From NCBI GenBank assembly GCA_016936575.1, contig JAFGXQ010000125.1, positions 1 to 64,000 on the forward strand: a stretch of DNA of 64,000 nucleotides. Direction: 5' to 3'. Under the pieces are notes generated by a model. That model saw only the letters and a list, made by a program, of their open reading frames with translations, had not been told where the DNA came from and did not search any database. The DNA comes from Deltaproteobacteria bacterium (GTDB lineage Bacteria; Myxococcota_A; Polyangia; JAAYKL01). The position numbers and the translations under genes were made by a program. Below are positions 8,772 to 25,704 of the stretch, one piece after another (position 1 is the stretch's first letter; the number at the start of each line of letters is the position of its first letter).

Positions 8772-9995
8772 TCAGACTGCGGCAAAGGGAACCGCGATGA
8801 TATTTTCGCTGATGCGCTGAACACGCTTGTCGTTGTTGATTACGATGCCGTAGGGACATTTGTACTCCTCCAGAAAGTTTTGAAGTCCCCTGATATGGCG
8901 CGAGTTGATCTTTTGACTGTATTTTATCTCTACGGGGATCATGCCGAACGTTCCGGTAACGACCATATCCACCTCCGCACCGGCACCGGTTCGATAGTAG
9001 CAATAGTCAACGTTGGTCCCCTCGCTTTGGAACGAGCGCAGCAACTCTTCCTGAACCATCCCTTCAAATGAATGTCCTATAACCGGATGGCGCAGCAAAT
9101 CCCTGGTTGTTTGAATGCGCAGCTGGTGGTGCAGTATGCCGCTGTCGCGGATATATCCGCGCGGATGCTTCACCAAACGCTTTACACTATTGCGGTGGAA
9201 TGCGGGAATATTTCTCCACAGGAATGTCCCATGGGCGATTTGAAAATATTCCTTTATCGTTTTGGGAGTGGTATCGAGTGCGCGGGCGACATCAGAATAA
9301 TTGATGGTTTGTCCCGAAAGACCCGCGAGCAGACCGACGAACCGCTGAAACCGAAGACTATCGAGTTGCGGAAAAAGGCGACCGATGTCTCTGGAAACAT
9401 ATGTAGTGAAATAGTTTTCCCTCCAAACTTCTGTGAATCGAGGATTGTTTTTTATCCATGGTTCCGGAAATCCACCTTCCAGCCAGTATTTATGGATTCC
9501 CTGAGGGTCGGACTTCAATTGAAGTGAGGATTCAAATTCCTCAGGCGTTGCCCGACGGGAAATCAACGAAGTTAAAGAGACGCTTTTAGCGGTACAGACT
9601 TCCCGAAAGGTGAAAGGGGGCAATTCGATAACACCGATGCGCCCTGCCAAAGACTGCGAAATCGCGTGCAGGAGCTCCGGAGAGCTGGAACCGGTGATGA
9701 CAAATCTTCCGGGGTACTCCCGGTTTTCGTCGATGGCAACGCGAAGTGCCGAAAAAAGTGCAGGGAGGATCTGTGCTTCATCTACAATAACCTGCTCCGG
9801 ATGCAATGCGAAAAACTGATCGGGATCGTGCGATATAACGGAAAAATCGGCCTGCCGTTCCAAGTCGTAATAATTCCAGGAGGAATCAAGGGTACGTACA
9901 AGAGTGGTTTTTCCGCATTGCCGGGGTCCAACTACGGCAACTGCTGGAAAAAACGTCAGATATTCCGAAAGTAATTGTTCAAATGCACGCTTCAT
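8772..9995 (-). CDS. AAA_14/DUF4143 ATPase (copy 1)
   Basis: A 407-residue COG1373-type protein from the ATG at 9995. An N-terminal P-loop ATPase carries Walker A VGPRQCGKTT and Walker B VIVDEAQ, followed by the sensor-like segment FVITGSSS. The C-terminal DUF4143 part ends in the PD-(D/E)xK-like pattern AEVDMVV then VEIKYS. The role of this family is not established; members behave as accessory, often laterally transferred genes and have been linked to DNA-repair or defence-like functions only by inference. A perfect 8-bp inverted repeat sits directly upstream of the start codon. The ribosome site is weak (AAGG). The gene stands alone between a signalling gene and the MinD-like fusion. Confidence 0.85.
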   Translation of the reverse strand: MKRAFEQLLSEYLTFFPAVAVVGPRQCGKTTLVRTLDSSWNYYDLERQADFSVISHDPDQFFALHPEQVIVDEAQILPALFSALRVAIDENREYPGRFVITGSSSPELLHAISQSLAGRIGVIELPPFTFREVCTAKSVSLTSLISRRATPEEFESSLQLKSDPQGIHKYWLEGGFPEPWIKNNPRFTEVWRENYFTTYVSRDIGRLFPQLDSLRFQRFVGLLAGLSGQTINYSDVARALDTTPKTIKEYFQIAHGTFLWRNIPAFHRNSVKRLVKHPRGYIRDSGILHHQLRIQTTRDLLRHPVIGHSFEGMVQEELLRSFQSEGTNVDYCYYRTGAGAEVDMVVTGTFGMIPVEIKYSQKINSRHIRGLQNFLEEYKCPYGIVINNDKRVQRISENIIAVPFAAV

Positions 9996-9997
9996 AC

Positions 9998-10018
9998 CTT
10001 GCAATTTAGTATTGCAAG
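9998..10018. promoter_or_regulatory. Perfect 8-bp inverted repeat abutting the start of the DUF4143 gene
   Basis: CTTGCAAT, five bases, ATTGCAAG. It lies immediately upstream of the ATG at 9995 on the minus strand, where an operator or an mRNA hairpin over the ribosome site could act. No T-run follows, so it is not a terminator. Confidence 0.5.
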
Positions 10019-19418: not shown

Positions 19419-19547
19419 TATGCTAGAACTCTTGGGTTGAGTGGCGCAGCTATTGCCAAATCCCTTGAAATTTCCGATGTATCTGCGCTGCGTGCGACAG
19501 CTAAAGGCAGAGAAATCGCAAAACAAGATGGAATAGATTTTGAGTAA
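19419..19547 (+). pseudogene. In-frame C-terminal remnant of a transposase-like HTH protein
   Basis: Directly after the stop codon at 19416-19418, the same frame stays open for 42 codons and then ends in TAA at 19545. It reads LGLSGAAIAKSLEISD and ends KGREIAKQDG, a helix-turn-helix pattern like the C-terminal tail of IS200/REP-associated (RAYT) transposases. There is no start codon or ribosome site. It is best explained as debris from an insertion event at the end of the Cys-rich protein gene. The family assignment is a guess from a short stretch. Confidence 0.35.
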
Positions 19548-19618
19548 AGTAAGAAAGCTCGTCGCGTCCCCTATGCCCTCTATGCCCTACTTTTTCATTT
19601 CTTCTATGTAGTATTAAG

Positions 19619-19671
19619 AAATGGCGGCAGCTTCGCCATTTTTCCTTTAATTATGGCGGAGTCGTTGCCAT
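19619..19671 (+). repeat. Two ATGGC...GCCAT palindromes at 32-bp spacing
   Basis: AAATGGCG-7 bases-CGCCATTT (19619-19641) and ATGGC-9 bases-GCCAT (19653-19671). The two TGGCG boxes start exactly 32 bp apart, and the inner one ends 42 bases before the ATG of the ATPase gene at 19700. A mirrored set lies upstream of the convergent ATPase gene near 22.2 kb. Confidence 0.6.
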
Positions 19672-19693
19672 TTTTTAGTATTTATAGTATGAT
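19665..19693 (+). promoter_or_regulatory. Predicted sigma70 promoter for leaderless DUF4143 mRNA
   Basis: TTGCCA, 17 bases, TATGAT. The -10 box ends six bases before the ATG at 19700, so the expected transcription start is the first base of the start codon or within one base of it. No ribosome binding site exists. The -35 box overlaps the inner GCCAT repeat. Confidence 0.55.
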
Positions 19694-19699
19694 TACAGT

Positions 19700-20854
19700 A
19701 TGACTAAGCAATATCGTCGATTTTTAACGCTTCCGCCAAACGCTTCTATTTTTTTATTCGGTCCCCGTGGTTCGGGAAAATCAACATGGCTGAAAAGCCA
19801 TCTTCCAAATGCGCTGTATATCGATTTGTTAGAGCCGGAAACCGCGCGTTCTCTATCGGCCCACCCGGAAACCCTTGAATCGCGGGTACAAGGCGCATCC
19901 AACAATTTAGTGGTTATCGATGAAATACAAAAACTGCCGAACCTGTTGGAAGTGGTTCATCGCTTGATAGAAAACAACCGTGACCTTCATTTTGTACTCA
20001 CCGGCTCCAGCGCACGCAAACTAAAGCGCGCGGGTGTTGATTTATTGGCCGGTAGAGCATTGGTTCGATTTTGCTATCCATTTATCGCAGCCGAGCTCGG
20101 CAAATCGTTTTCGCTGGAACGCGCGCTTCAAGTTGGCACCATGCCGGTTGTTTGTACCCATGACAAGCCTGAAGATGTGTTGAAATCTTATCTGTACACT
20201 TACGTTGAACAGGAAGTCAGACAGGAAGGGGTTGTTCAAAATATCGGTAATTTCAACAGATTTTTGGAGGCACTCAGTTTTTCTCATGCGTCCCTGTTGA
20301 ACACATCAGACATTTCCCGCGAGGCTGAAGTCCCCAGAAAGACGGTGGAAGGATACATTTCAATCGTTGAAGACCTGCTGCTTGGTCACCGTATTCCGGT
20401 TTTTTCCAGACGCGCGAAACGCCACCTGATTAAAAAGCAGAAATTTTATTACATTGACCCGGGGGTATTTGCGGGGCTTCGGCCGAAGGGCCCGCTGGAT
20501 TCTGTTCAAGAAATCGCAGGTGCGGCATTGGAAGGGTTGGTGTTCCAGCACTTGAAAGCATGGATTGAATACTTTGACGTGAAGTTATCCATATCTTACT
20601 GGCGCACACGATCGGGAAAAGAAGTGGATTTTGTGTTGTATGGACAGGACGGTTTTTACGCCCTGGAAGTAAAAAACAGTCGGCGGGTACACAAGAAAGA
20701 TGTCTCTTCATTGAAAACGTTTTCTGAAGACTACCCGGAAGCCACCCCCCTGCTACTATATCGCGGGGATGCGCGGTTGCAAATTGAAGGCATTCGCTGC
20801 GAACCGGTCGAGCCGTTCCTCACATCATTGGATTCAAAACAGTTCCCGCTGTAA
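19700..20854 (+). CDS. AAA_14/DUF4143 ATPase (copy 2)
   Basis: A 384-residue protein with Walker A GPRGSGKST, Walker B VVIDEIQ and the FVLTGSSA segment. A winged-helix-like middle part (about 190-240) is followed by the DUF4143 end with KEVDFVL and ALEVKNS, a PD-(D/E)xK-like core. The short spacing between domains and divergent sequence show it is not a recent duplicate of the other three copies in the window. It has no Shine-Dalgarno sequence and is predicted to be leaderless. It is convergent with, and overlaps by 21 bases, another DUF4143 gene. Cellular role unknown. Confidence 0.85.
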   Translation: MTKQYRRFLTLPPNASIFLFGPRGSGKSTWLKSHLPNALYIDLLEPETARSLSAHPETLESRVQGASNNLVVIDEIQKLPNLLEVVHRLIENNRDLHFVLTGSSARKLKRAGVDLLAGRALVRFCYPFIAAELGKSFSLERALQVGTMPVVCTHDKPEDVLKSYLYTYVEQEVRQEGVVQNIGNFNRFLEALSFSHASLLNTSDISREAEVPRKTVEGYISIVEDLLLGHRIPVFSRRAKRHLIKKQKFYYIDPGVFAGLRPKGPLDSVQEIAGAALEGLVFQHLKAWIEYFDVKLSISYWRTRSGKEVDFVLYGQDGFYALEVKNSRRVHKKDVSSLKTFSEDYPEATPLLLYRGDARLQIEGIRCEPVEPFLTSLDSKQFPL

Positions 20855-22156
20855 GGACTTGCTCGATTCTGTTCCAAATAATCGCCAGGCCGGGACTGAA
20901 ACAGCGGGGCAATCTATTCCCGGGACAGATTTAAAGGAATGCACCTCGGTGTCCATGTTCACAACCATCGCCAGTAACAACGGCTTGTCGAGCAACGACT
21001 GAAGATTTTTCAAATGACGGGCATCTTTCGCGCAAAAGTGTTCGCTCAGTTTACATTCTATCGCTATGTAGCCGGCGTCACTTTCAATTAAAACGTCTAC
21101 TTCACGGCCGTCGCTGGTGCGCAGGTGATAGAAATCGACCATTGCTTTGGCAATCGAAGATTGTTTATACAGCTCTGAAAAAACGGCCGTTTCAAATTCT
21201 GCGCCGTCAACATTTCCAGTGCGACCGATAATGCCGCGGCGTACCCCCGGATCAAGGAAATGGAGTTTACTCATTTTCGAAAGTCGCTTTTCTTCATTTC
21301 GAAACCATGGGCGCAGCAAGTGAACCTGGTAACTCAATTCGAGGTAGTGGAGGTACCGCTTGGCGGTTTTCGCATCAATGCCGGCAGCATTCGCCAGAGA
21401 TGAAAACTGCAGGGTTTGTCCGGTGCGCAAGGCCGCAATTGTTTGGGCGGTAATAAAAAGTGTCAGATCTGCCAATCTGGCAAGGTCCGCCAGGTCACGT
21501 TGCAGATACAGTTCATGATAGTCACGCAGCCATTCCATCCTTGATGCGTCGTTCATTTCCTCGTGGGTAAGTGCCGGCATGCCTCCGAATCGCAAATAAT
21601 ACTCAAACCATTGACGCGAAGATGCATCGTTTGAAGATAACTGTCGATGAGCTGCGCCTATTTGGGAAATAAACTGTTGCACTGATTCCTCTGAAACATT
21701 TGCAATCAATTTCATAAACTGGGATTGGCTGGTGGAATGTGCCGAATCGCTCATCAATTCAGGGATCGTCAACGCAACCATTTTTTGCAATGCCACTCGA
21801 CCTGCCAGTGATTCCCGCACGCCTTGAAGCAGCATTATCTGTGACGAGCCGAGCAAAACGTATTTCAGATGTTCAGCCTGGTCGTAGCAACTTTTCAGCG
21901 TCTCCAATACTTCAGGCGCTTTTTGTATTTCATCTAAAATGGCCGTGGGATATTGTGAAATCCATTGAGCAGGTGTCATTTTTACGTACACATTGCGTTC
22001 TACCGGAGAATCAAACCGCAATAATGGAATATCGGGGAACGCATGTTGTACCAATGTCGTTTTACCCACTTGGCGCGCACCGGTAAGCACCGTAAATCTA
22101 CCGCGCTTTGAGGCGAGAAGTTCTTGTACCCTGTTATATAGAAATCGTTGTTTCAT
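20834..22156 (-). CDS. AAA_14/DUF4143 ATPase (copy 3)
   Basis: A 440-residue protein with Walker A GARQVGKTT, Walker B AILDEIQ and the YVLLGSSQ segment. A long helical middle follows, and the C-terminal nuclease-like pattern is REVDVLI then AIECKLSE. It faces the copy-2 gene, their 3' ends overlapping by 21 bases, which forms a two-gene cassette flanked by TGGCG repeats. The start at 22156 has no ribosome site. A weak promoter in the same position as in copy 2 (TGGCAT, 17 bases, TAACCT, six bases, ATG) can be drawn. Role unknown. Confidence 0.85.
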   Translation of the reverse strand: MKQRFLYNRVQELLASKRGRFTVLTGARQVGKTTLVQHAFPDIPLLRFDSPVERNVYVKMTPAQWISQYPTAILDEIQKAPEVLETLKSCYDQAEHLKYVLLGSSQIMLLQGVRESLAGRVALQKMVALTIPELMSDSAHSTSQSQFMKLIANVSEESVQQFISQIGAAHRQLSSNDASSRQWFEYYLRFGGMPALTHEEMNDASRMEWLRDYHELYLQRDLADLARLADLTLFITAQTIAALRTGQTLQFSSLANAAGIDAKTAKRYLHYLELSYQVHLLRPWFRNEEKRLSKMSKLHFLDPGVRRGIIGRTGNVDGAEFETAVFSELYKQSSIAKAMVDFYHLRTSDGREVDVLIESDAGYIAIECKLSEHFCAKDARHLKNLQSLLDKPLLLAMVVNMDTEVHSFKSVPGIDCPAVSVPAWRLFGTESSKSLQRELF

Positions 22157-22188
22157 AATTTCAGGTTATCACATTCATCACTTTTATG

Positions 22189-22285
22189 CCAGAATATACG
22201 CTAAAAACAGGTAACGCAAGCCAGTATTTACGCCAAAAATAGGTTTCAGATTCCAGTATTTACGCCATTTTTACATTAGAAGAGT
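22189..22285 (-). repeat. Three 32-bp tandem iteron-like repeats upstream of DUF4143 copy 3
   Basis: Units begin at 22189, 22221 and 22253 (plus sense CCAGTATTTACGCCAAAAA). Units 1 and 2 agree at about 20 of the first 24 positions, and units 2 and 3 share the first 15. In gene sense each gives TGGCG-TAAATACTGG. The box nearest the gene ends 43 bases before its ATG. The units are contiguous without spacers, so this is not a CRISPR array. Confidence 0.65.
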
Positions 22286-24348: not shown

Positions 24349-24517
24349 GAAAACCTCCACTACTGAAAATTCGTCTTCTCTCTATGTGGTGAGGGTAGAC
24401 CGCTGTTTTTTTTTGATTCACTGACAGAATAACACCTGTCAAAAACAAAATGAGAATTGAAAAATGAATAACAACAGCATGAGAAGCAAGCGCATGATTT
24501 CGATTTACCAGTTATGC

Positions 24518-24533
24518 CTAGTATTTTTACTAG
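24518..24533. promoter_or_regulatory. Perfect palindrome overlapping the -35 box of DUF4143 copy 4
   Basis: CTAGTA-TTTT-TACTAG. Its right arm shares the first bases of the TAGACA -35 element, a position typical for a repressor site. Confidence 0.5.
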
Positions 24534-24558
24534 ACAAATCTATTAAAACGGTTACAAT
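24531..24558 (+). promoter_or_regulatory. Predicted sigma70 promoter for leaderless DUF4143 mRNA
   Basis: TAGACA, 16 bases, TACAAT, with the -10 box ending six bases before the ATG at 24565. This is the same geometry as at 19665-19693. No ribosome binding site precedes the ATG. Confidence 0.55.
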
Positions 24559-24564
24559 TCCTTT

Positions 24565-25704
24565 ATGAAAGAAATTCAATTACCGTTCATCGATCGACTA
24601 AAAGCTACGATTGGCGCCAAACCGTCACTAATTCAAGTGGTCATCGGTCCGAGACAAGTGGGGAAGACCACCGGAATGAAACAGCTGCTGGCACAATTGC
24701 CTGCGCAGTCATTTCGGTACGAATCAGCGGACGCCATCATCGGCCCGCCCACAGCCTGGATATTTGAAAAGTGGCACGAAGCACTCTCCAATAGCCGCAC
24801 AGAGTTGTTGGTGATTGATGAGGTGCAAAAAATTGAAAACTGGTCTGACGCCGTTAAGAAGCTTTGGGATGAGCAACAGAATCACTCGAGACAATTACAA
24901 CTCGTTTTGTTGGGCTCCAGTTCGCTAGATATTCAAAAAGGGCTCTCTGAAAGTCTTGCGGGCCGATTCTTTGTTCACAAAGTGTATCACTGGAATGCGG
25001 AGGAAAGTCGACAGGCGTACAATCTTTCATTGGATGAATATTTGCGTTTCGGCGGCTACCCGGGAAGTTATCCGTTTATTCAGTCAACGGAACAATGGCT
25101 TAACTACATGAATGAATCTATTATCAACCCCGTCATTGGGAAAGATATTCTCAGTCAGGCAAGGGTGAAATCTCCGGCGCTGTTTAAACAGTGTTTTGAT
25201 ATTGTTTGTGCATATCCTGCGCAGGAAATCAGCTACACCAAATTATTGGGGCAACTTCAAGACAGAGGAAATACAGATTTGGTCAAGCATTATCTGGAAC
25301 TGTTTGAAAGTGCGTTTCTCATTAAACAGATTTTCAAATTTTCAAATCGACACGTACGGAGCCGTACATCTTCTCCTAAAATATTGCCGCTTTGCCCCGC
25401 ATTGTTCAGCGCGCAACAGGATGCCGATCTCAACGATGAAGAATTGGGCCGGGTTTTTGAACTCTCTATCGGCGCCGCGCTGGTGAGGCTTCCCGGCCGT
25501 TTGTTTTACTGGCGCGAAAAAAACGCCGAGGTGGATTATGTTTATCAGAACGGAAAAAGGCTCGTTGCCATAGAAGTAAAATCCGGCAGAAAAAAAAGCG
25601 CAAAAGGATTAATGAAATTTTGTGAACAATTTTCGAACGCGATCCCGCTGGTCATTACGCGAGAGAACTATAACGAAGCACTTCGAAGAATCGCATTGGA
25701 GTAG
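24565..25704 (+). CDS. AAA_14/DUF4143 ATPase (copy 4)
   Basis: A 379-residue protein with Walker A GPRQVGKTTG, Walker B LVIDEVQ and the LVLLGSSS segment. The DUF4143 C-terminus carries AEVDYVY and AIEVKSGRK, again a PD-(D/E)xK-like core. The upstream 200 bases are AT-rich and free of genes, and the promoter appears to yield a leaderless transcript under a palindromic operator. It is 75 bases upstream of the DEDDh exonuclease gene and could be co-transcribed with it. Function unknown. Confidence 0.85.
   Translation: MKEIQLPFIDRLKATIGAKPSLIQVVIGPRQVGKTTGMKQLLAQLPAQSFRYESADAIIGPPTAWIFEKWHEALSNSRTELLVIDEVQKIENWSDAVKKLWDEQQNHSRQLQLVLLGSSSLDIQKGLSESLAGRFFVHKVYHWNAEESRQAYNLSLDEYLRFGGYPGSYPFIQSTEQWLNYMNESIINPVIGKDILSQARVKSPALFKQCFDIVCAYPAQEISYTKLLGQLQDRGNTDLVKHYLELFESAFLIKQIFKFSNRHVRSRTSSPKILPLCPALFSAQQDADLNDEELGRVFELSIGAALVRLPGRLFYWREKNAEVDYVYQNGKRLVAIEVKSGRKKSAKGLMKFCEQFSNAIPLVITRENYNEALRRIALE

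Follow-up and report, generated by a model that had tools for sequence, protein, structure and literature searches.

The window, by which the whole analysed stretch of 64,000 nucleotides is meant, carries four of the 17 DUF4143 matches of its genome; in relatives the number of such matches ranges from 0 to 34. Two of the four genes form a convergent pair with 3' ends overlapping by 21 bp (Table 1), and short boxes recur ahead of both. Before the left gene (start codon at 19700, plus strand) TGGCG is found on the plus strand at 19622-19626 and 19654-19658, 32 bp apart. Before the right gene (start codon at 22156, minus strand) it is read on the minus strand at 22267-22263 and 22235-22231 and is joined by TAGCG at 22203-22199, each step again measuring 32 bp. 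The inner boxes lie 42 and 43 bases from the respective start codons. Box positions, spacing and start distances are as the initial annotation gave them, and a spacing of three helical turns near a start codon does look regulatory.

Table 1. DUF4143 genes of the window and the repeat units in front of them
Feature	Position	Strand	Description
Left DUF4143 gene	19700..20854	+	384 aa; Pfam AAA_14 + DUF4143; PADLOC PDC-S01, E 4e-57
Left operator, unit 1	19621..19643	+	palindromic ATGGCG-gcagctt-CGCCATTTTT
Left operator, unit 2	19653..19675	+	ATGGC-ggagtcgtt-GCCATTTTT; 32 bp from unit 1
Whole left operator	19612..19680	+	both units join in a larger dyad of odd length; arms of 28 nt, gap of 13
Right DUF4143 gene	20834..22156	-	440 aa; Pfam AAA_14 + DUF4143; PADLOC PDC-S01, E 9e-79
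Right operator, inner unit	22188..22207	-	TTTTTAGCGTATATTCTGGC
Right operator, middle unit	22220..22239	-	TTTTTGGCGTAAATACTGGC
Right operator, outer unit	22242..22271	-	AAAATGGCGTAAATACTGGAATCTGAAACC
Another DUF4143 gene	8772..9995	-	407 aa; start moved to the ATG behind the dyad
Private dyad of the 8772..9995 gene	9998..10018	-	CTTGCAAT-actaa-ATTGCAAG, odd length, abuts the ATG
Fourth DUF4143 gene	24565..25704	+	379 aa; weak upstream dyad at 24501-24550, z 3.3

All three window proteins tested exceed the Pfam cut-offs for AAA_14 and DUF4143, the PDC-S01 profile giving E 3e-133 for the third of them, and no WYL domain is present among the Pfam domains of the window proteins. The left protein combines an AAA+ ATPase, whose Walker A motif spans residues 21-28, with a winged helix at about residues 181-235 and a PD-(D/E)XK nuclease (E278, D310, E323, K325), and its AF2 model (pLDDT 93.7) displays the same AAA+ core, winged helix and nuclease. 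Residues G26, K27, D74, E75, E278, D310 and E323 are invariant and K325 is nearly so, leaving the Walker A/B and PD-(D/E)XK motifs intact. In a Foldseek search of the PDB the model matches best Cdc6/Orc1 bound to origin DNA and then RuvB, the matches being partial with TM of about 0.25-0.4; sequence search of solved structures returns distant AAA+ matches only. The winged helix of the model and the Cdc6/Orc1 fold match make DNA binding by a protein of the left type plausible.

Separate operators of the convergent pair

Closer inspection of the two upstream regions reveals different architectures. The left pair consists of two palindromic 23-mers, ATGGCGGCAGCTTCGCCATTTTT and ATGGCGGAGTCGTTGCCATTTTT, repeated at a lag of 32 and matched by none of 200 shuffles, and the single-strand DNA fold of 19600-19680 reaches z = -5.2. 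The right side holds three direct repeats resembling TTTTTGGCGTAAATACTGGC, likewise at a lag of 32 and likewise matched by 0/200 shuffles. Since only the left units are palindromic, the two sides carry distinct repeat types with a common 5-mer, and the initial reading of mirrored copies of one shared box gives way to a palindromic pair facing a direct triplet of another sequence. The two upstream regions reach a best similarity score of 11, which is also the 95th percentile for unrelated pairs of DUF4143 genes; the stretch that matches is an AT-rich segment outside the boxes.

The genome-wide distribution of the units points in the same direction. The left unit has no third exact copy in the genome; its consensus finds two 2-mismatch matches elsewhere (control 1), and the right unit two distant 3-mismatch matches (control 2). 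Each set of units thus stands at its own gene only in this genome, and the single factor proposed for both genes is not borne out by such differing operators. TGGCG-N27-TGGCG occurs twice in the window against 0.39 expected, at least two occurrences being seen in 6 of 100 shuffles, and 26 times in the genome, fewer than the 35 of the reversed control, which is chance level; TGGCG at 32-bp spacing accordingly carries no special signal. Rejected for this reason as a common box, the spaced TGGCG is also absent from relatives of the left gene. The spaced-repeat search that had been proposed for relatives therefore fails for this 5-mer, while in a broader form it succeeds: paralogues carry their own, different sequences repeated at 31-33 bp.

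The surroundings of the left operator hold further repeated sequence. Just to its left, at 19421-19541, lies a 121-bp remnant of a gene 3' end that shares 90% identity with contig C169; copies of a 35-bp repeat at 19545-19580 are present on contigs C130, C216 and C129. The dyad of the 8772..9995 gene was spotted by eye and is below significance in the automatic scans.

Repeat arrays and common geometry across the DUF4143 class

Repeats were sought in the 110 bp before the start codon, the start being anchored on Walker A, and were scored against dinucleotide shuffles with a cut-off of z 3. Among relatives, 41/92 DUF4143 upstream regions (45%) exceed this threshold, compared with 4/92 neighbouring genes (4%; Fisher p 7e-11). 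A second, independent set from named genomes of Bacteroidota, Spirochaetota, Bacillota, Pseudomonadota, Planctomycetota, Chlamydiae and others gives 55% of 77 DUF4143 genes and 11% of 191 neighbours, and in a later set of plasmid genes 8/13 are above z 3, with two more at 2.6-2.7. One query used for finding further genes was approximate in its C-terminal part, which was in consensus form, and no identity was drawn from it. Roughly half of the DUF4143 genes show no significant repeat in the 110-bp scan. TetR comparison genes were positive in 3/20 cases, a poor control, as several of the chosen ORFs are plainly not TetR.

The arrays differ in form from gene to gene. Direct repeats of 32 bp precede two paralogues (L038, L040), long dyads precede three others (L028, L029, L039), and five 22-bp copies give one DUF4143 gene (L059) an iteron-like look. 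In relatives of the left gene the dyad often stands directly before the ATG and covers a TATAAA-like element. The operator of one subfamily is constant in Treponema and Lachnospiraceae, and paralogues within one genome differ. In a Clostridia subfamily (L251, L225, L235) two full dyads stand in tandem at 50 or 60 bp, of which close relatives keep one or two.

Behind this variety lies a common geometry. Odd-length dyads make up 83/88 overall, and counted once per 60%-identity subfamily they outnumber even ones by 54 to 2 (56 subfamilies, p 4e-14), compared with 9 to 6 among neighbours. Alignment on the dyad centre gives the consensus TGCAAATTTgaAgTt-N-aAcTtcAAATTTGCA, and in many dyads the two arms are complementary all the way to a single central base. 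A class matrix trained on other clusters places 37% of held-out DUF4143 upstream regions above the control 95th percentile, compared with 4% for the segment from -110 to -220 and 1% for shuffles. The window operators score 6.1 (left) and 4.3 (right) on this matrix, with a threshold of 7.9, and so belong to the class by architecture and not by consensus. Direct-repeat lags gather near 22, 32 and 52 bp with 10.5-bp phasing (R 0.53, p about 2e-4), and the half-site of the 22-bp arrays, CTTTCAATTGGTC, resembles by eye the outer half of the dyad. The operator usually takes the form of an odd-length dyad, about 31-37 bp long, or else of half-site direct repeats every two or three helical turns.

Dyad centres lie at a median of 39 bp ahead of the start codon. 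The -35-like hexamer TTGAC[AT] is found in 28% of DUF4143 upstream regions versus 7% of controls, and two thirds of these sites in strong-dyad genes overlap the dyad. With repeats at 45-55% of the genes and this -35-like enrichment, the family presents a dyad or repeat operator over its own predicted promoter.

Transfer of the operator with a single reading frame

The operator stays with its gene. Upstream regions are similar in 50% of pairs with 60-75% protein identity and in 78% of pairs above 75%, compared with 0-5% of pairs for the regions farther upstream and downstream. In 62 non-syntenic pairs homology stops no more than 7 bp past the stop codon, and in the 39 pairs with upstream homology it starts at a median of 1 bp from the repeat edge (quartiles -3.5 to 12). 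Homology running from repeat edge to stop codon in unrelated contexts defines one operator plus one ORF as the travelling unit. The initial annotation had offered the boxes as two termini of a two-gene cassette; throughout the family the repeat instead forms the upstream border of a unit of one gene, with the stop codon as its other border, and a two-gene cassette with the same TGGCG box at both ends was not found to be common to relatives. With a single gene as the unit of the family, the pair in the window is best taken for two such units placed tail to tail, and its boxes form two distinct operators, one for each gene. Relatives match the right-hand lyase gene and other parts of the region, never both flanks together, so that no empty site of the pair could be read.

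Comparisons of closely related replicons illustrate such movement. In Thermus thermophilus strains SG0.5JP17-16 and SNM1-7 the unit is flanked by PxpA and a CRISPR array; HB8 and AA2-2 have the same PxpA/CRISPR locus without it, and HB27 carries it at another locus, the gene copies at the two loci being 95.5% identical. Strain HB5018 (L300) retains a 106-bp remnant of a DUF4143 gene start where HB27 has the whole gene, which is a deletion scar. On plasmids of Rhizobium, Ensifer and Agrobacterium the unit, here 22-bp repeats, the ORF and about 90 bp, recurs in differing contexts.

The Rhizobiaceae plasmids (L292, L294, L301-L308) show one further peculiarity: the right end of the unit is GGTTCGATTCCCTTCAA, which recalls the T-arm of a tRNA. 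Several records have a motif of this kind about 280-330 bp upstream as well, and in two the neighbours are toxin-antitoxin pairs. These units possibly form a cassette array with tRNA-end-like junctions; neither ARAGORN nor Rfam detects a tRNA gene where the Rhizobium unit ends on its 3' side. At another locus (L029, G000:C144) the DUF4143 stop codon is followed by a diverged second copy of about 57 bp from the 3' end of the adjacent gene, as if the DUF4143 gene had entered the 3' end of its neighbour.

It could be supposed that the repeats serve mobility or assembly in cis, after the manner of iterons or element ends, and that the AAA+ ATPase-nuclease would gather on them to move its one-gene unit. 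The sharp borders at repeat edge and stop codon would suit such a role, as would the two Thermus loci, one of them empty in HB8 and AA2-2, and the many contexts of the Rhizobiaceae unit. One subfamily, moreover, occurs in just 12/397 genomes of a family and is nevertheless 74-94% identical there, and an Emticicia unit is fitted between araD and araA, leaving 58 and 39 bp free. (In this case, L367 on pEMTOL02 of Emticicia oligotrophica, the gene is on the opposite strand and its dyad abuts the ATG.) However, the Thermus and Rhizobiaceae comparisons yielded no target-site duplication, no matching 3' repeat and no common insertion site, so that compact-unit transfer is claimed here and a transposition mechanism is not. 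Older transfers would leave like borders if selection keeps only the functional part, and the repeats overlap promoter-like sequence; a mobility role is on the whole unlikely. A transposable element with inverted ends was rejected, as the repeat is upstream only and the Thermus comparison reveals no duplication. It is tempting to go further and picture DUF4143 genes as minimal self-moving one-gene elements, whose repeats would serve both self-control and as a recognised end for precise insertion. This would account for the fact that in many phyla the unit runs from repeat edge to stop codon; we consider it quite improbable.

Probable self-control of the unit and comparison with known systems

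The reading that we favour, and regard as rather probable, is that the gene's own product binds the private operator and represses its own promoter, operator and ORF travelling together. A dimer or higher oligomer of the product would occupy sites on one face of the helix; once bound, it would repress its own promoter and thereby hold down the level of an ATPase-nuclease that may be harmful, until the repression is lifted by infection or some other trigger. Operator and ORF pass between genomes as one compact unit. Self-binding with autorepression is the most economical account of operators that are private, stay with their gene, have a common geometry, overlap -35-like elements and accompany a protein with a DNA-binding fold. 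Regression of operator similarity on domain identity gives beta 0.26 for the AAA domain, 0.15 for the winged helix and 0.14 for the nuclease. The winged helix was accordingly rejected as a proven operator reader, the regression lending it no special weight over AAA or nuclease.

Host regulators, rather than the gene's own product, might instead read the operators. Binding by the product is something we infer, and the regression singles out no domain as reader. Nevertheless, operators differ among paralogues of one genome and yet remain constant for one subfamily in Treponema and Lachnospiraceae, each window unit serves only its own gene, and geometry and consensus are common to the family in many phyla, which makes reading by host regulators a decidedly unlikely arrangement. 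Chances are slimmer still that the dyads act as RNA hairpins in a 5' leader, in translation control or attenuation. Their location shortly before the start codon would allow it, but complementarity up to one central base is of no use to an RNA hairpin, the 22- and 32-bp direct repeats are phased to the DNA helix, and the TTGACA-like elements inside dyads would put these dyads upstream of transcription. Finally, one factor for both window genes, or two ends of one two-gene cassette, has the common TGGCG, equal spacing and mirrored placement to recommend it and is very improbable in view of the distinct repeat types with left/right similarity not above the 95th percentile of unrelated pairs, the chance-level genome count, the lack of such boxes in relatives and the one-gene unit of the family. 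Self-repression remains the preferred reading, and DUF4143 genes probably switch themselves on and off.

Several known systems share parts of this organisation. REP/RAYT elements likewise combine palindromes with mobile genes, and the 121-bp repeat remnant just upstream of the left operator recalls them; the repeat units, however, are not dispersed in the genome, and the remnant holds no known domain. Membership in this group, with its dispersed palindromes and Y1 transposase, was rejected on the lack of further exact copies and of a domain in the remnant. Orc1/Cdc6 proteins with their origin recognition boxes and iteron initiators similarly pair AAA+ and winged-helix domains with helically spaced repeats beside the gene, whereas DUF4143 proteins have an extra C-terminal nuclease and are encoded by single chromosomal genes in many contexts; unlike in iteron systems, dyads are commoner than tandem iterons. 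BrxR/CapW-type regulators are autorepressed winged-helix proteins with a dyad operator over the promoter and a defence context, and the DUF4143 units may be alike in outline. There, however, a separate repressor controls an effector operon, whereas here, if the favoured reading is right, ATPase, nuclease and DNA binder would be one polypeptide, and the window proteins lack a WYL domain.

The closest counterpart is PDC-S01, the PADLOC phage-defence candidate defined by AAA_14 + DUF4143 (COG1373), which all three window proteins tested match strongly. It is described as an ATPase fused to a PD-(D/E)XK domain that ranks fourth in frequency among the defence systems, putative ones included, of prokaryotes and is still unvalidated (PMC12988326). 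As far as consulted, that account is silent on an upstream operator, on odd-length geometry and on an operator + ORF transfer unit, and describes no control for what are among the most abundant putative prokaryotic defence genes (PMC12988326). The initial annotation knew of no such boxes at DUF4143 genes, and this holds for the literature searched under DUF4143, COG1373 and PDC-S01, which took in few subscription journals and no preprints. Autoregulatory operators as such are nothing unusual, but private ones throughout the PDC-S01/DUF4143 family are, as far as checked, new within that literature. Dyads of this kind can pass for host regulons or cassette ends. Recognised as private operators, they predict DNA-binding partners from sequence, suggest that self-repression is the safety catch of a putative one-protein ATPase-nuclease defence, and define the exact unit that is transferred.
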